From Lysobacter sp. M2-1 (GTDB taxonomy: Bacteria > Pseudomonadota > Gammaproteobacteria > Xanthomonadales > Xanthomonadaceae), in assembly GCF_022662495.1 (NCBI RefSeq), contig NZ_JAKPBU010000001.1, positions 558,001-622,000 of the forward strand: DNA of 64,000 bases, written 5' to 3'. Positions 10,207 through 17,133 of this stretch are shown one piece after another. Under the pieces are notes generated by a model. That model searched no databases. It saw only the letters and a program-made list of their open reading frames with translations, and was not told the DNA's origin. Made by a program: the position numbers and the translations under genes. Numbering within the stretch: the stretch's first letter is position 1; each line of letters starts with the position of its first letter.

Positions 10207-12900
10207 GTGAGCCTGCGCGACTACGCACGCAAGCGGCGCTTCGCCGACACGCCCGAGCCGGCAGACGATGCCGGGCGCGCAGGCGGCCGCGGCAGGCACC
10301 GCCCGATCTTCGTGGTGCAGCTGCACAATGCCCGTGCGCGGCACTACGACTTCCGGCTCGAGGCCGACGGTGCGCTCAAGAGCTGGGCGGTGCCGAAAGG
10401 ACCGTCGCTGCGCGCGGGAGAGAAGCGGCTCGCGGTGCAGGTCGAGGACCATCCCCTGTCCTACGCCGGCTTCGAAGGCGAGATCCCGGAAGGCAACTAC
10501 GGCGCCGGACACGTACTCGTGTTCGATCAGGGCGTGTGGGCCTGCGAAGGCGATCCGCTGGAAGGCATCGCCGCGGGCAAGCTCGACTTCAGCCTGCATG
10601 GGTCCAAGCTGCGCGGTCAGTGGAAGCTGGTGCGCACCGGCATGCGCGGCGGACGCGGCGATGGCAAGCCGCAGTGGCTGCTGATCAAGCGCAACGACGA
10701 ATACGCGGCGGATGTGGAGGCCGACGATCTGGTGGAGGTCGAGCCGGGTCCGGAATCCTCGGCCGCGACCCGGCGGGTATGGGACTCCATCGAAGGCGAG
10801 CTGGTGGTGCCGAAGACGGCTGCAAAGCCGCACGCCACAAGCAGCCGTGCGACCACCAAGGCCCCGCCGAAGAATGCGCGCCGCAAGCCCCGCCGCAGCG
10901 ACGCGACCTGGAAAAAACGCGCGCTCGCGCTGGAGGGCGCCAAGCCGCGTCCCTTCCCCCCCGGCTTCAAGCCCGAACTGGCCACGCTGCGCGAACACGC
11001 GCCCCGCGGCGACGACTGGCTGCACGAAGTCAAGTGGGACGGTTACCGCATGCTCGCCGATCTGGTCGACGGCAAGGTCAAGCTGCGCTCGCGCAACGAC
11101 CTAGACTGGACGCCGGATTTCCCCGAGATCGTCGAAGCCATCGAGGCGCTGCCGGTCTCGGATGCACGCCTGGATGGCGAACTGGTGGCACTGGGCCCGG
11201 AAGGCGTGAGCGACTTCGCCCTGCTGCAGCGCACGCTGCAGGGCCGGTCCAACGCCTCGCTGCGCTACATGCTGTTCGACATGCCGGGCATTGCCGGCGT
11301 GGACCTGTCGCACGCAGCGCTCGTGGACCGCAAGGCGCTGCTCGAATCGCTGCTCGAACAGGCGGGCGGCGAAGCGCTGGCCTATAGCAGCCACGTGCTG
11401 GGTCACGGCGAAGAGGTGTTCGCGGCCAGCGCCACCCAGGGGCTGGAAGGCATCATCGCCAAGCGCCTCGATGCGCCGTATTCGCAAACGCGCAATGCGC
11501 AGTGGGTGAAGGTCAAGCACGCACAGGGCGACGAGTTCGTGGTGGTGGGCTATACCGCGCCGCGCGGTGCGCGCACCGCCTTCGGTGCGTTGCTGATGGC
11601 GGTGCCGGATCAGGACGGGCTGCGCTATGTCGGCCGGGTCGGCACCGGCTACAACGACGAGACCCTGCGCGCGTTGCACGCGAAGCTGCAGCCGCTGCGG
11701 CGCAAGACCGCGACGGTGGAGCTTCCCGATCACCTGCCGCACGACAAGCGCGACCGCGGCAATATCCACTGGGTGCGACCGCAGCTGGTCGTCGAAGTCG
11801 CCTATCGCGGCTGGGGCAAGGACGGCCTGCTACGCCAGGCCAGCTTCCAGCGCATCCGCATCGACAAGACCGTGGAGGACCTGATGGCGACTGCGAAGGC
11901 AAGCAAGCCCACGAAGAAAGCAACGAAAAAAGCGGCCGTCGCCCGATCCAGGCAAGCTGCCGCTCCTGTGAAGGCCGCGAAGGCCGCGAAAGCCGCGAAA
12001 CCGGCGTCGAAACCCGCTGCGCGCCGTGCCGGAGCTTCGCCACAGGTCCAGATCAGCAGTCGCGACCGGGTCGTGTTCCCCGATGCCGGCATCACCAAGG
12101 GCGAAGTAGCCGACTATTACACCGCGATCGCCGGGCGCATCCTTCCGGATCTCGCGAACCGGCCGCTGTCGATCGTACGTTGCCCCGATGGCGCCACGGG
12201 TACCTGCTTTTTCCAGAAACACCATGCAGACACGCTGGGGCCGCATGTGCACGCGATCAGGCTCAAGGAGAAGAGCGGCGCCGACGATTACCTGTATATC
12301 GATGATGCCGACGGCCTGCTCGAACTGGTGCAGATGAACGTGCTGGAGTTCCATCCCTGGGGCGCGCACGTGGACAAACCCGAGCAGCCGGACACGATGG
12401 TGTTCGACCTGGACCCCGGGCCCGGAATCGAATGGAAGCAAGTCGTTGCGGCGGCGCGCGATGTACGCGCGCGATTGGAAGACGCAGGACTGCAAAGCTT
12501 CGTGCGGCTGACCGGCGGCAAGGGTTTGCACGTGGTCGTGCCGATCCGGCGCGGCCCGACGTGGGATGCGGTCAAGGATTTCACCGGCGCGTTCGCCGAG
12601 GCCATGGCCACGCACAAGCCGCTGCACTACGTCGCCACCATGAGCAAGGCCAAGCGCAACGACCGGATCTTCATCGACTGGCTGCGCAACGGCCGCGGGG
12701 CCACCAGCGTGTGCGGCTGGTCGCTGCGCGCGCGCGCCGGCGCCCCGGTCGCCGTGCCGATCCGCTGGGAGGAGCTCGGGCGTGTCGGCGCACCACCCGC
12801 CTTCGGCCTGCACAAAGCGCTCAGGCGCGCGAAGACGTTGAAGCAGGATCCATGGGAGGACTACTTCGCCTGCAAGCAGGCATTGCCCAAGCTGCGCTGA
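10207..12900 (+). CDS. ligD: ATP-dependent DNA ligase LigD (PE-ligase-polymerase)
   Basis: The 897-residue multidomain NHEJ enzyme has its domains in the Pseudomonas order. The 3'-phosphoesterase is at about 30-190 (FVVQLHNARARHYDFRLE, FEGEIPEGNYGAG). The adenylation/OB ligase is at about 255-560, with nucleotidyl-lysine motif KWDGYR starting at Lys276 and motif IIIa YMLFDM. A Lys/Ala linker lies near 565-605. The primase-type polymerase is at about 615-890, with catalytic FDLDPG (Asp734, Asp736) and RLTGGKGLHVVVPI. It processes, fills in and seals ends bound by Ku. The start is a GTG at 10207 with GAGG upstream, 9 nt after ku, so the two genes form an operon. Confidence 0.97.
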   Translation: MSLRDYARKRRFADTPEPADDAGRAGGRGRHRPIFVVQLHNARARHYDFRLEADGALKSWAVPKGPSLRAGEKRLAVQVEDHPLSYAGFEGEIPEGNYGAGHVLVFDQGVWACEGDPLEGIAAGKLDFSLHGSKLRGQWKLVRTGMRGGRGDGKPQWLLIKRNDEYAADVEADDLVEVEPGPESSAATRRVWDSIEGELVVPKTAAKPHATSSRATTKAPPKNARRKPRRSDATWKKRALALEGAKPRPFPPGFKPELATLREHAPRGDDWLHEVKWDGYRMLADLVDGKVKLRSRNDLDWTPDFPEIVEAIEALPVSDARLDGELVALGPEGVSDFALLQRTLQGRSNASLRYMLFDMPGIAGVDLSHAALVDRKALLESLLEQAGGEALAYSSHVLGHGEEVFAASATQGLEGIIAKRLDAPYSQTRNAQWVKVKHAQGDEFVVVGYTAPRGARTAFGALLMAVPDQDGLRYVGRVGTGYNDETLRALHAKLQPLRRKTATVELPDHLPHDKRDRGNIHWVRPQLVVEVAYRGWGKDGLLRQASFQRIRIDKTVEDLMATAKASKPTKKATKKAAVARSRQAAAPVKAAKAAKAAKPASKPAARRAGASPQVQISSRDRVVFPDAGITKGEVADYYTAIAGRILPDLANRPLSIVRCPDGATGTCFFQKHHADTLGPHVHAIRLKEKSGADDYLYIDDADGLLELVQMNVLEFHPWGAHVDKPEQPDTMVFDLDPGPGIEWKQVVAAARDVRARLEDAGLQSFVRLTGGKGLHVVVPIRRGPTWDAVKDFTGAFAEAMATHKPLHYVATMSKAKRNDRIFIDWLRNGRGATSVCGWSLRARAGAPVAVPIRWEELGRVGAPPAFGLHKALRRAKTLKQDPWEDYFACKQALPKLR

Positions 12901-13055
12901 AGCCCGCATCCGTCGCGCCCAAGACTGTTCGTGCGCCTCGCCCGTTGCGGACTGCGCGCGCTTCCTCCCGATCTCGCCCGCATTCCGACCGACGACGCGT
13001 GCATCTCGTGATCGCGACCGTTCGTCGGCATCGAGGCATTCTTCGCAGGAACAGG

Positions 13056-13084
13056 TTGCATAACGATTTGCGCGAGCGTATCGT
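13056..13084 (+). promoter_or_regulatory. Candidate sigma-70 promoter of the RNA-repair leader
   Basis: TTGCAT (13056-13061) and TATCGT (13079-13084) are separated by exactly 17 nt, predicting a transcription start near 13090, about 43 nt before the small ORF at 13133. The match to consensus is moderate. It lies in the otherwise featureless 232-nt gap after ligD. Confidence 0.4.
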
Positions 13085-13132
13085 GCGCGCCCTTCGTCCT
13101 TGCGACGACGTGTACAACACACACCTAGAGCC

Positions 13133-13261
13133 ATGACGCATTCCTTCCACATCGCAAACCTGCTCGATCTGCGGCGCGCACGCCGCGGCCTGGCAGCGCG
13201 CGTGCCCGCGTATCGCCCGACCGTCGGCGATCGCAAGGAACTGCGGCCCACCATCAGCTGA
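13133..13261 (+). CDS. Putative 42-residue Arg-rich leader peptide
   Basis: The ORF encodes 42 residues with eight arginines (positions 14, 15, 17, 18, 23, 28, 34, 38), four of them within LRRARRG. It begins MTHSFHIANLLDL and has no signal peptide or known domain. Its stop codon overlaps the first of a series of mutually exclusive RNA hairpins that end in an intrinsic terminator, which is the layout of a transcription-attenuation leader. The ribosome site is weak (TAGAG). The alternative is a free-standing small protein whose own terminator follows. No amino-acid biosynthesis gene lies downstream; the next genes are tRNA-like elements, slipin and rtcB. Confidence 0.5.
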   Translation: MTHSFHIANLLDLRRARRGLAARVPAYRPTVGDRKELRPTIS

Positions 13262-13340
13262 TCTTTCGCCTACGGAAGATCGGCACCCGATCTTCCGAGG
13301 ACACGCGAACGCCCTCGGATCCTGTCCGGGGGCTTTTTTT
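13260..13340 (+). promoter_or_regulatory. Candidate five-segment transcription attenuator with intrinsic terminator
   Basis: Four successive pairings are visible. Segment 0 (13260-13268) pairs with segment 1 (13273-13281): 9 bp including one G-U, loop CCTA. Segment 1 extended (13273-13283) pairs with segment 2 (13287-13297): 11 bp perfect, loop CAC. Segment 2 end (13294-13300, TCCGAGG) pairs with segment 3 (13313-13319, CCTCGGA): 7 bp perfect. Segment 3 (13311-13319) pairs with segment 4 (13325-13333): 9 bp with one G-U and then seven Ts (13334-13340), an intrinsic terminator. Neighbouring pairings exclude each other. A ribosome reaching the stop at 13259-13261 would cover segment 0 and favour 1:2 and the terminator; a ribosome stalled upstream would allow 0:1, then the 2:3 antiterminator. 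The regulation is inferred; the pairings are read from the sequence. Confidence 0.6.
13311..13340 (+). terminator. Intrinsic terminator of the leader
   Basis: A 9-bp stem (GCCCTCGGA / TCCGGGGGC, one G-U pair) with a 5-nt loop is followed by seven consecutive Ts. It ends transcripts about 50 nt after the small ORF unless the antiterminator forms. Confidence 0.8.
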
Positions 13341-13650
13341 GCGCGTTCGCGAATGGAGTTGGTTCAAGAAATCTGCCGACACGATCCGCATCCCAGGCAT
13401 CCGGGCATCGACTGCCCGCAGGAAGGGATTTCCGCTGTGAGGCGCTGCTGCTGCATGCAGCATGAGGCGCTGTGCCCCGATGCCGGGCACGGGCGGCGGG
13501 CGGGTTCGCGTCGGCGACGGAATTGACGCCGGTTTGGCGTCAATACGAAGCATCGTTCGAATGGCTTCCAGCGGCTCGGGCTCGCACGCCCGGCCGGTGC
13601 GCGCGGCGCTGCCGTGGCGTATGCCCGAAGCCGGGAGAGATGTTTCGAGC
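13341..13650 (+). ncRNA. Structured non-coding stretch before the tRNA-like elements
   Basis: No convincing gene lies here, but strong hairpins do. TGCTGCATGCAGCA is a perfect palindrome at 13449-13462, flanked by two direct copies of TGAGGCGCTG. A 9-bp perfect stem ATTGACGCC / GGCGTCAAT with loop GGTTT spans 13522-13544. GTGCCC/GGGCAC can pair at 13472-13490. A minus-strand frame crosses the region but has no support. I read it as part of a structured leader or sRNA. Confidence 0.4.
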
Positions 13651-13720
13651 GGACGAAAGCTCAGAGGTTGAGCAGCGGCGCGAGCCGTTGGCCGCCGGTT
13701 CGAATCCGGCTCGTCCACCA
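13651..13720 (+). ncRNA. tRNA-like element 1: acceptor, D and T arms with a shortened anticodon arm
   Basis: The 70 nt fold like a tRNA. The 6-bp acceptor is GGACGA / TCGTCC followed by ACCA; the D arm is GCTC-AGAGGTT-GAGC with the GG pair in the loop; the T arm is GCCGG-TTCGAAT-CCGGC with a canonical TTCGAAT loop. The anticodon arm is replaced by CGGC-GCGA-GCCG, a stem closed by a GNRA tetraloop, so there is no seven-base anticodon loop and it cannot decode. Position 8 is A rather than T, and the acceptor has lost one pair. The encoded CCA end and intact T arm suggest recognition by tRNA-processing or repair enzymes. It may be a tRNA pseudogene or a tRNA mimic like the tRNA-like module of bacterial Y RNAs. 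Confidence 0.6.
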
Positions 13721-13792
13721 CTGGATAGCTCAGAGGGTTAGAGCATCGGTCTCATAAACCGACTGTCGCGGGTTCGACTCCCGCTCCAACAA
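13719..13792 (+). tRNA. Degenerate tRNA-Met/Ile2-like element, anticodon CAT
   Basis: Directly after element 1, overlapping its CCA by two bases, is a second cloverleaf. It has T8, D arm GCTC-AGAGGGTTA-GAGC, anticodon arm TCGGT-CTCATAA-ACCGA with anticodon CAT, and T arm GCGGG-TTCGACT-CCCGC. The acceptor is defective: only the inner four pairs form (TGGA / TCCA), the outer three (CAC against ACA) do not pair, and no CCA is encoded. It looks like a tRNA whose 5' end was replaced by the 3' end of element 1. A scanner might call it tRNA-Met; normal charging is doubtful. Confidence 0.55.
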
Positions 13793-14158
13793 CGACCTGT
13801 CACGTCGTTAACCGGGCGCAAGCCCACACCAGGAAACGCCCCGTGCGGCGTTTCGCCAGGCGTCGCGCTTCGGTGTGGTGCGCAACGGAACGCCGCAGCG
13901 GTGATATCGCCGGGCCCGCGCCCTCGAGGCAAGCCGGCGGTCGCAGGACACGCGAAAGCGGCAGCAGCAATGCCGCGGATGCGTCGAACGCGATCGCCGC
14001 CCTGCGGACAGCACGCCGGCTCCGCGGTATCCACGTCAGGGGCGCTTCCACCCATTCCTTTGCCCGCTTCGACTTTGGAGCGTGCACCGCGAGACCCGAT
14101 CCATCGCGCGCATTACCAAGCGGATCGGACCACCAGAGCCAACCAAGGAGAACTTCCA
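13791..14158 (+). ncRNA. Structured 5' leader of the slipin gene
   Basis: The 368 nt between the tRNA-like elements and the slipin ATG carry no gene that I can support. Hairpins cluster in the first 90 nt: AACGAC/GTCGTT (13791-13809); GGGC-GCAA-GCCC with a GNRA loop (13814-13825); GAAACGCC/GGCGTTTC (13833-13854); the last can sit inside an outer CCACACC/GGTGTGG stem (13824-13830 with 13872-13878). From about 13880 to 14140 I see nothing definite. AAGGAG at 14145-14150 is the ribosome site of the slipin gene. Confidence 0.4.
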
Positions 14159-15283
14159 ATGTTCTGGACCAAGAGGGTCGTGATCGGTGACGGCGAGCGC
14201 GGCCTGGTGTATCGCAACCGTCAATTCGCAGGCGTGCTCGCGCCGGGCGTGTACCGCTGGTTCGACCCGTTCAAGCGGGTCGAGGTGACAATGCACGGCA
14301 TTGCCAAGGCGGAATACGCCGGCAGCGATGCCGATGCGCTGATCGCCGCACTGGGCGAGAGGCTCGGCGAGAGCTTCGTGCTGGCCAACCTCGGCATGGA
14401 TGAAGTCGGTCTGGTGCTGAAGAACGGCAAGCTCGAGGACGTGCTCGCTCCGGGGTCGCGCAAGCTGTACTGGAAGGGCCCGGTGGCCGTCGACGTGCAG
14501 ACCGCGTCGCTCGCGAACGGTCTCGAGGTCGAGGCCGCCGTGGTCAAGCGTCTGCGTCAGCTCGGCGTGCTCGAGCGCATCACCGTGTCGCTGGTCGTGC
14601 CCGAGGAGAATGCGGGCCTGCTGTTCATCGACGGAAAGCTGGTGCGCACTCTGGCACCGGGCGCCTATGCCTTCTGGAACTTCCAGAAGAACGTCGGCGT
14701 GGAGCTGGTCGAGCTGCGCGTGCAGTCGATGGAAGTCTCGGGCCAGGAGCTGTTGACCCGCGACAAGGTCAGCCTGCGCGTGAACCTCGCAGCGAGCATC
14801 CGGGTCGCCGATCCGGTGGCCGCGCGCACCAAGGTCGCCAAGTACGGCGACTACGTGTACCGCGAGCTGCAGTACGGCCTGCGTAAGGCGATTTCCGCCA
14901 AGACGCTGGACGAGCTGCTCGGCGACAAGGCTTCGCTCGACGCCGACATCTTCGGCTACGTGCGCGGCCGCGTGAACGACCTCGGTGTCGACGTGCTCGG
15001 CGTCGGCGTCAAGGACGTGATCCTGCCGGGTGAGATGAAGGACATCCTCAACAGCGTCGTGCAGGCGGAGAAGGCGGCCCAGGCCAACGTGATCCGTCGT
15101 CGCGAAGAGGCGAACGCCACGCGTTCGTTGCTGAACACGGCGAAGCTGATCGAGGAGAGCCCGGTGCTCATGCGTTTGAAGGAGCTGGAGGCTCTGGAGA
15201 AGGTCACCGAGAAGATCGACAAGTTGACCGTGTTCGGCGGCCTGGACGGCGTCATGAAGCAGCTGGTCAGCTTGAAGCAGTAA
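14159..15283 (+). CDS. Slipin/SPFH (band 7) protein linked to RtcB
   Basis: The 374-residue protein has an SPFH domain at about 175-330 (LRVQSMEVSGQELLTRDKVS, VREL-type YRELQYGLRKAI, VGVKDVILPGEMK) and a charged helical C-terminal tail (RRREEANATRSLLN). Unlike classical slipins it has no N-terminal membrane helix. Instead three copies of a beta-hairpin module occur at about 11-36, 81-106 and 150-175, each with a G-L-[VL]-x(5-6)-[FL]-x-x-[VT]-LAPG core. Slipins scaffold membranes or oligomeric rings. Linkage of this type to RtcB is a known association in RNA-repair gene clusters; the role of the slipin there is unknown. Start chosen from AAGGAG 8 nt upstream. rtcB follows after 57 nt. Confidence 0.85.
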   Translation: MFWTKRVVIGDGERGLVYRNRQFAGVLAPGVYRWFDPFKRVEVTMHGIAKAEYAGSDADALIAALGERLGESFVLANLGMDEVGLVLKNGKLEDVLAPGSRKLYWKGPVAVDVQTASLANGLEVEAAVVKRLRQLGVLERITVSLVVPEENAGLLFIDGKLVRTLAPGAYAFWNFQKNVGVELVELRVQSMEVSGQELLTRDKVSLRVNLAASIRVADPVAARTKVAKYGDYVYRELQYGLRKAISAKTLDELLGDKASLDADIFGYVRGRVNDLGVDVLGVGVKDVILPGEMKDILNSVVQAEKAAQANVIRRREEANATRSLLNTAKLIEESPVLMRLKELEALEKVTEKIDKLTVFGGLDGVMKQLVSLKQ

Positions 15284-15340: not shown

Positions 15341-16564
<1,224 letters not shown>

Positions 16565-16701: not shown

Positions 16702-16730
16702 TTGACGGAACCATACAACCCCATTATCTT
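16702..16730 (+). promoter_or_regulatory. Sigma-70 promoter of the nrdAB riboswitch transcript
   Basis: TTGACG (16702-16707) and TATCTT (16725-16730) with 17-nt spacing predict a transcription start near 16737, at the 5' edge of the cobalamin riboswitch. Confidence 0.65.
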
Positions 16731-16945
16731 GGGTTCGTCGGTTTCGGTGGCCTGCAAGTCGCCGGATGAAAAGGGAAGCCGGTGACGCCGTCGTCAGCGA
16801 CGTTGGCCATTCCGGCACTGCCCCGCAGCGGTAACTGGGAACGAACCCGCCATGAGCACTGGGGCAACACGCCCCGGGAAGCGGCGGACTAGGAGGAAGC
16901 CCGAGGCTTCCGCGCCCATGAGTCCGAAGACCTGCCGACAGCCGC
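16731..16945 (+). promoter_or_regulatory. Cobalamin (B12) riboswitch upstream of nrdA
   Basis: The consensus elements of the B12 aptamer occur in order: GGTTCGTCGGTTTCGGTGGCC at the 5' end, GATGAAAAGGGAAGCCGGTG, the CACTGCCCCGCAGCGGTAA block, GCCATGAGCACTGG, CGGGAAGCGGCGGAC, AGCCCGAGGCTTCC, and the B12 box AGTCCGAAGACCTGCC (16921-16936). It lies about 190 nt upstream of the nrdA ATG. Adenosylcobalamin binding normally represses the downstream gene, consistent with shutting off the B12-independent class I reductase when B12 is available. I could not identify a terminator or sequestering stem with confidence in 16946-17133. Confidence 0.92.
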
Positions 16946-17133
16946 GCGATGCACGCCGCGCGGTGCCGGCCGCGGAATCTCCGGGGGGAGATGGCTGGTG
17001 GAGCACGCCGGCCGCAGCCCCCCTGCGCAGTCCCGGTTGTTGCGACGCCGCTGTCCGACCTTGTCGTTTCCGATGCCATCCGCGCCTGCGAGGGACAGGT
17101 CCGGACCCGTGCATCCCGCATGGAGACGACCCG

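Follow-up and report, generated by a model that had tools for sequence, protein, structure and literature searches.

A likely peptide-independent, ribosome-mediated transcription attenuator of the slipin-rtcB RNA-repair operon in Xanthomonadales

Attenuators of the trp and his biosynthesis operons are built from a leader ORF, alternating stems, and an intrinsic terminator. In Actinobacteria, passages of two reports (PMC11550727, PMC12121999) describe a uORF upstream of wblC/whiB7 whose full translation leads to a Rho-independent terminator and whose disturbed translation leads to an antiterminator, with several classes of ribosome inhibitor as well as amino-acid starvation acting as inducers. 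VmlR of B. subtilis is described in an excerpt of PMC9226507 as another translation-inhibitor attenuator. As for RNA repair, RtcR (sigma-54), usually the activator of rtcB, controls rtcBA, and damaged tRNAs induce the operon through RtcR in Salmonella, according to an extract of PMC7790460. In Anabaena, rtcB, slipin genes, and a tRNA (trn) operon are targets of TrcR and rise under chloramphenicol (sections of PMC10272220). A further study suggests a possible increase of rtcB and slipin under erythromycin (portion of PMC9938897), and the rtc locus of P. aeruginosa includes an SPFH gene (portion of PMC13086221). In the open-access full-text literature, a scope that leaves subscription papers outside, no description of an attenuator for rtcB was found, and the main text of a genome-wide attenuator survey (PMC2965389) makes no mention of rtcB.

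The window analyzed here is a 64,000-nt stretch of Lysobacter sp. M2-1 (GCF_022662495.1, NZ_JAKPBU010000001.1, positions 558,001–622,000 of the forward strand), and the parts of the leader and operon described below lie on its forward strand. Its leader region sits between ligD, which ends at 12900 (Pfam), and slipin. The putative promoter consists of TTGCAT (−35, 13056–13061), a 17-nt spacer, and TATCGT (−10, 13079–13084), directly followed by the G+C-rich stretch GCGCGCCC (13085–13092). G+C-rich discriminators of this kind are typical of growth-rate-controlled promoters. The consensus of the leaders collected from relatives is TTGC-17-TAnnGT followed by GCGCGnCC, with the −10 plus nCGC motif present in 49/50 family leaders and a TTGC or TTGA −35 in 44/50; a strict promoter scan of 12900–14200 is uninformative here, since it returned zero promoters and missed even this one. 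The leader ORF runs from the ATG at 13133 to the TGA at 13259–13261 and has 42 codons, eight of them for Arg. Its stop codon lies inside segment 0 (13257–13268), whose partner is segment 1 (13273–13284). Segment 1 can alternatively pair with segment 2 (13287–13300), and segment 2, through TCCGAGG, with segment 3 (13305–13319), which is made up of 3a (GCGAACGC, 13305–13312) and 3b (CCTCGGA, 13313–13319). Segment 4 together with the T7 run (13325–13340) forms an intrinsic terminator with segment 3. In detail, 0:1 joins 13260–13268 to 13273–13281 (9 bp, one G-U), 1:2 joins 13273–13283 to 13287–13297 (11 bp), 2:3 joins 13294–13300 to 13313–13319 (7 bp), and 3:4 joins 13311–13319 to 13325–13333 (9 bp, one U-G) ahead of the T7 at 13334–13340. 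The first-pass annotation of this region had listed the promoter pair with its spacing, the 42-codon ORF with eight Arg codons, the five segments with helices of 9, 11, 7, and 9 bp followed by T7, and the overlap of the ORF stop with segment 0, all of which proved correct to the base.

Downstream of the terminator lies segment 5 (GCGTTCGC, 13343–13350), which can pair with 3a in readthrough RNA. Two tRNA-like elements (13650–13793; Rfam tRNA, 44 and 55 bits) stand between the leader and slipin (14159–15283; SPFH/Band 7, Pfam PF01145, 105 bits), and the operon continues with the RNA ligase gene rtcB (15341–16564; Pfam PF01139, 421 bits). The second tRNA-like element has, by eye, a shortened acceptor pairing, and because the anticodons of these elements are variable or unreadable in relatives, they may be decoys or repair substrates and not working tRNAs. 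The G+C-rich stretch at ~13380–13650, between the leader and the tRNA-likes, contains blocks that recur, by eye, in many relatives, making it a possible structured noncoding RNA; Rfam gave no match over this stretch apart from the tRNA-likes. Further along, a cobalamin riboswitch (16722–16953, 105.7 bits) lies shortly upstream of an ORF that, from its sequence, we take to resemble a ribonucleotide reductase large chain. A search of the window's own genome for a Ro60/TROVE gene gave none.

Like the trp and his attenuators, the rtcB leader has an ORF, alternating stems, and an intrinsic terminator, but it is without a control-codon run, its peptide is unconstrained, and its first helix holds the stop codon, such that a terminating ribosome is predicted to set the switch to OFF. 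Going by the excerpts cited above, the closer likeness in logic is with wblC/whiB7, where completed uORF translation favors the terminator and disturbed translation the antiterminator, as predicted here. In contrast to that system, however, the rtcB leader belongs to another lineage, precedes tRNA-likes, slipin, and rtcB and not a WhiB-type transcription factor, has its stop codon inside the first switching helix, and carries the extra segment 5. The TrcR system, as excerpted, likewise ties rtcB and slipin genes to translational stress, as is predicted for this locus, but TrcR is a protein repressor acting on separate loci, whereas the rtcB leader is a cis RNA.

To follow the leader beyond the window, a DNA search was run on 198 genomes of the same family. 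A match was found in 77, many of them being weak, GC-rich matches inside the ORF. Around hits overlapping segments 0–4, 51 stretches were taken, and L086 and L087 were dropped for want of the anchor motif, leaving 49 that together with the window make up the 50 leaders. Downstream of these 50, slipin was found in 47, rtcB in 47, and both in 45; two of the loci break off early, L061 after 1.8 kb and L088 after 0.7 kb of downstream sequence. A covariance model of the 50 leaders gave 145 matches of at least 58 bits, counted by hand, which fall in 144 of 395 family genomes and are followed by a gap down to 38.6 bits; the pattern is therefore not a product of chance. Among 369 genomes of the class, a set that includes few genomes of the same order, nothing outside the family exceeded 38.8 bits. 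The weak hits outside the family that were read (L156, L165–L167) were rejected as terminators after other genes, by eye, as was the weak in-family hit L168 (38.6 bits); neither slipin nor rtcB was found in the sequence covered for these five loci, which for L156 and L167 extends only ~2.4 and 1.4 kb downstream. A plasmid collection contained no match to the leader.

The exact pattern occurs at 91 places in a genome collection of 84,980 species. Among the titles listed, 77/80 are Xanthomonadales, and the remaining three belong to MAGs, of which one bears the name Planctomycetota; the genera include Lysobacter, Luteimonas, Pseudoxanthomonas, Xanthomonas, Dyella, Rhodanobacter, and Arenimonas. 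At 67 of the 91 places rtcB lies downstream, at 15 slipin is followed by the end of the locus, and 9 end within 1.0 kb, so that among places with at least 3.5 kb downstream none is without rtcB. The leader element is thus best read, on these genome comparisons, as real and specific to the Xanthomonadales lineage. In some relatives it stands directly before rtcB, with 23 nt (L151), 111 nt (L152), or 229 nt (L154) between the end of the leader match and the gene, and the long distance to slipin, which had been named as a weak point of the attenuator idea, consequently does not count against it. Several variations of the locus were also noted. In L047, L048, L050, L055, L057–L060, L066, L069, L070, L081, and L083, ~0.87–1.04 kb of extra sequence separates slipin from rtcB, which is room for one more gene. 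L149 (G096:C24) has a second rtcB copy with a projected start 1 nt after a degenerate leader match that has lost its T-run; since this leader is placed after the end of the preceding gene, that gene's own stop would act as the leader ORF stop. Genome G021 (L053, L264) has the leader, tRNA-likes, and slipin but no rtcB nearby (none within 5 kb of L053), and G049 (L157, L265) has an orphan leader with neither slipin nor rtcB.

The leader ORF was present in 50/50 leaders, with 32–44 codons, 49 ATG starts and one GTG, and 47 TGA and three TAA stops, and its stop was positioned 11–22 nt upstream of segment 1. Mononucleotide-shuffled leaders contained such an ORF in 1.5% of cases each. At the pattern places of the species collection, an ATG-started ORF with a correctly placed end was found in 89/91, the exceptions being L201, on the contig of the GTG-started L060, and L254, with 113 nt of upstream sequence only. 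For L150 and L164, the scan shows no ATG-started ORF, and a TTG start is possible. Codon choice in the leader ORFs is gene-like. Using weights taken from the gene-like ORFs of the window only, codon adaptation was 0.646 in frame versus 0.402 and 0.320 in the other frames, the in-frame value being the highest in 48/50 ORFs; the controls gave 0.375 when these peptides were recoded with codons picked according to base composition, and 0.697 for the genes of the window. The peptide, on the other hand, is free to change. In 29 independent pairs from 107 unique ORFs, substitutions by codon position 1/2/3 numbered 114/128/125, and the synonymous fraction was 0.245 versus 0.265 expected (dN/dS near 1). 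The even spread over codon positions and the near-expected synonymous fraction argue that the leader peptide is not under purifying selection, and an arrest-peptide leader of the ermC, tnaC, or secM type was rejected on the same figures, no nascent peptide being conserved. Translation of the ORF, judged from these comparisons, therefore seems to have been kept while the peptide has not. A Shine-Dalgarno consensus match of at least 5 nt was found in none of the 50 leaders, the window's included, and the poor ribosome site that the first-pass annotation had conceded is thus confirmed and common to the relatives.

In composition, the leader ORFs of the 50 genomes differ from the genes of the window in being enriched for Cys (3.1x) and His (2.4x) and depleted of Trp, Val, and Met. 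Each leader peptide has on average 17.0 different residues, compared with 15.1 (sd 1.7) for pieces of window genes cut to the same length and 15.4 for residues sampled from the composition of all leaders pooled (z 4.9 across 18 genera), and diversity is ~2 above the prediction from each leader's own base composition, being higher in 48/50. This excess is suggestive only, the test being weakened by the common ancestry of the leader peptides. A tentative reading, which we regard as possible but rather doubtful, is that the ORF serves as a tRNA panel, in which an unconserved peptide is kept diverse so that the ribosome would stall before the stop, turning RtcB on, whenever one of many different tRNAs is lost or cleaved.

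Pairing was assessed on alignment A1, comprising the 50 closer leaders, and on A2, a wider set of relatives; the shuffle counts that follow are not probabilities because the compared sequences are related and hence not independent. Stems 1:2 and 3:4 were 98.9% paired on A1 (1:2 being 100% paired) and had 34 double-change cells versus 10.2 in shuffles (0/500). Stem 2:3 was nearly invariant on A1. Its seventh pair is U-A in 22 leaders, C-G in 22, and a mismatch in 6, a match in 44/50 compared with a permuted mean of 22.9 and a maximum of 34 in 10,000 permutations, and on A2 the stem had 4 double-change cells versus 0.8 (0/500). For 0:1, covariation over 7 pairs was weak (8 double-change cells versus 5.2, 45/500). 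In many leaders this stem is longer, with 11 pairs in the alignment that include the final sense codon as well as the stop, and the window's stem is itself extendable to 13257–13268 with 13273–13284; as an 11-pair helix it had 20 double-change cells versus 9.1 in shuffles (0/500). Swapping segment 1 between genera also weakened 0:1 from −17.3 to −15.4 kcal/mol (sd 0.5, best −16.7 of 150). As judged from the alignments, then, the alternating terminator and antiterminator pairings are mutually exclusive and conserved. Conservation of the ORF and of alternating stems in relatives had been set beforehand as a test of the attenuator idea, and both were found, with all four stems covarying. The terminator scan, which hits 13311–13333, is not significant alone because it finds 1 site versus 1.2 expected in shuffles, and the 272-nt leader has a folding z of −3.1. 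Pairing of segment 5 with 3a had 13 double-change cells versus 1.5 (0/500) in 44 sequences of A2 and only one such cell on A1. In readthrough RNA this pairing could combine with 2:3 into a pseudoknot, and since segment 5 is transcribed after the decision, it should not set the switch.

The link to rtcB, the ORF and its position, and the alternating pairings were established by comparison, while the folding switch was computed. For the 50 leaders, RNA up to segment 3 was folded with 26 nt upstream free. With the stop region free, the antiterminator 2:3 beat 1:2 in 37/50 leaders, the local switch being absent in 13/50, whereas with the same upstream stretch shuffled 2:3 won in only 4.7/50 (sd 2.4, maximum 11, 40 sets). 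When a ribosome was placed on the stop codon in silico, 2:3 won in 0/50 and 1:2 in 50/50; in this state 1:2 can be accompanied, and often is, by a shortened 2:3 that has at most ~5.7 expected pairs. When the leading edge of the ribosome was moved along the RNA, 2:3 won in 41 of 50 leaders at stop−6, 23 at −3, 12 at 0, 11 at +3, 0 at +6 and +9, 2 at +11, 14 at +13, and 32 at +15. A terminating ribosome, whose A site holds the stop codon, is expected to have its leading edge at ~+6 to +11, near which the off window of the model would roughly fall. With the whole leader free, 2:3 was favored in only 21/50 leaders, and with a ribosome stalled mid-ORF in 27/50, indicating that RNA upstream can mask segment 0. 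There was no sign of an ORF element that hides segment 0 without translation, as codon-order-shuffled ORFs without a ribosome favored 2:3 in 17.5/50 (sd 1.9, range 13–20, 15 sets) versus the 21/50 of natural ORFs. At equilibrium, full-length RNA without a ribosome formed the terminator and not 2:3 in all 48 leaders computed (of 50), and the model consequently requires a co-transcriptional order of events. For 14 further leaders, with folds assigned by reading printed structures, ten (L150, L153–L155, L159–L164) form 2:3 with all or part of 0:1 when free, and L149, L151, L152, and L158 fold into 1:2 even then; with a ribosome at the ORF stop, 1:2 formed in 14/14, a shortened 2:3 persisting in a few (L160, L163).

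We consider it likely that the leader is a peptide-independent, ribosome-mediated transcription attenuator of the slipin-rtcB RNA-repair operon and that it responds to translation as such and to no particular amino acid. A ribosome reaching the stop codon would cover segment 0, 1:2 would then pair, and segment 3 would be left free for segment 4, ending transcription at ~13340. If elongation stalled before about the last five codons, segment 0 would stay free to pair with segment 1, and 2:3 would form; the terminator would be precluded and the tRNA-likes, slipin, and rtcB would be transcribed. Finished translation would thus mean termination, and stalled elongation would mean slipin-rtcB expression, turning repair on when protein synthesis fails. 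We infer from this scheme that the ORF is translated and that readthrough is regulated, and the natural signal would presumably be tRNA or ribosome damage. The proposal of the first-pass annotation that a transcription attenuator with a leader ORF precedes an RNA-repair operon is in this respect supported by comparison. Several observations count against the main reading. A dN/dS near 1 fits an untranslated region too, the Shine-Dalgarno sequence is missing, 13/50 leaders are without the local switch, and L149, L150, L164, G019, G126, G021, and G049 are exceptions. In addition, the initiation inhibitor kasugamycin did not derepress the TrcR targets of Anabaena, according to the sections of PMC10272220 used here.

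One signal first suggested was the loss or cleavage of tRNA-Arg, and the window, with 8 Arg in 42 codons, does look like a classical arginine or tRNA-Arg attenuator, in which stalling at Arg codons turns the operon on. The Arg share is also higher in the leaders than in the genes of the window (12.2% versus 8.1%). However, this 1.5x enrichment is exceeded by those of His and Cys, the number of Arg codons ranges from 2 to 8 per ORF (median 4, the window's 8 tying the maximum), consecutive Arg codons never exceed two in any of the 50 ORFs and thus make no control-codon run, the peptide is unconserved, and the genes downstream are slipin and rtcB and not biosynthesis genes. Arginine sensing is accordingly very improbable. 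The Arg codons failed the conservation check proposed for them, and of the two signals first suggested it is general translation failure that best fits the comparative data. A sensor of slow termination, in which a ribosome held at the stop would extend further ahead, cover segment 1 and so switch the operon on, would draw on the wins of 2:3 in 14 and 32 of 50 leaders with the edge 13 or 15 nt past the stop. At the expected edge of +6 to +11, though, the switch is off in 48–50 of 50, and helix 0:1 would be left purposeless, which gives this reading only a slim chance of being right.

We also think it unlikely that the element is a terminator acting constitutively at the end of a small gene or a small autonomous RNA, with slipin-rtcB having its own promoter. 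The terminator is indeed strong and is the fold adopted by the full-length RNA, but such a terminator would not account for the conservation of 2:3 and 0:1 with covariation or for the tie of the leader to rtcB across the order. A separate promoter is unlikely in L151 as well, because the 23 nt before the projected rtcB start leave hardly any room for one, an argument that holds for L151 only. The very high primary-sequence conservation of segments 1–3 would suit an RNA switch that binds a ligand or a protein, as in autoregulation by RtcB, with the ORF being incidental. This conservation is explained by the interlocking of the segments, however, and an incidental ORF would not be expected in 50/50 leaders with gene-like codons. 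Moreover, none of the riboswitch, T-box, and leader families of Rfam 15 matched the leader at gathering score, the best Rfam hits being 18.2 bits (E 3.5) and 15.3 bits (E 0.37). There is little probability in our estimate that a switch of this type is at work.

The attenuator reading can be set beside the distribution of RtcR. Among the 198 genomes, rtcB is of an A type 76–100% identical to the window's in 64 genomes and of a B type (58–68%) in 32, with both present in 15. The leader accompanies A-type rtcB in 59/64 genomes and occurs without it in two (G021, G049). Of the five A-type genomes without a leader hit, G091, G118, and G188 are cut by contig edges, while G019 and G126 are real exceptions and have no slipin. 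RtcR (PF06956) was found in 24 genomes, all with B-type rtcB, and 8 B genomes are without it; it was found in 0/49 A-only genomes, and PF06956 had no match in the window's own genome (G000). Like RtcR, which acts on damaged tRNA in the excerpted Salmonella work, the rtcB leader would switch RNA repair on, but RtcR goes with the B type and is absent from the genomes just named. Because the leader goes with the A type and RtcR with the B type, the attenuator seems to take the place that RtcR has elsewhere. A conserved cis element of this kind would tie RNA repair directly to the failure caused by damaged tRNA or rRNA with no protein regulator, which bears on the timing of RtcB production in bacteria that lack RtcR, and it would add RNA repair to the processes under ribosome-mediated attenuation, beside amino-acid supply and drug resistance.
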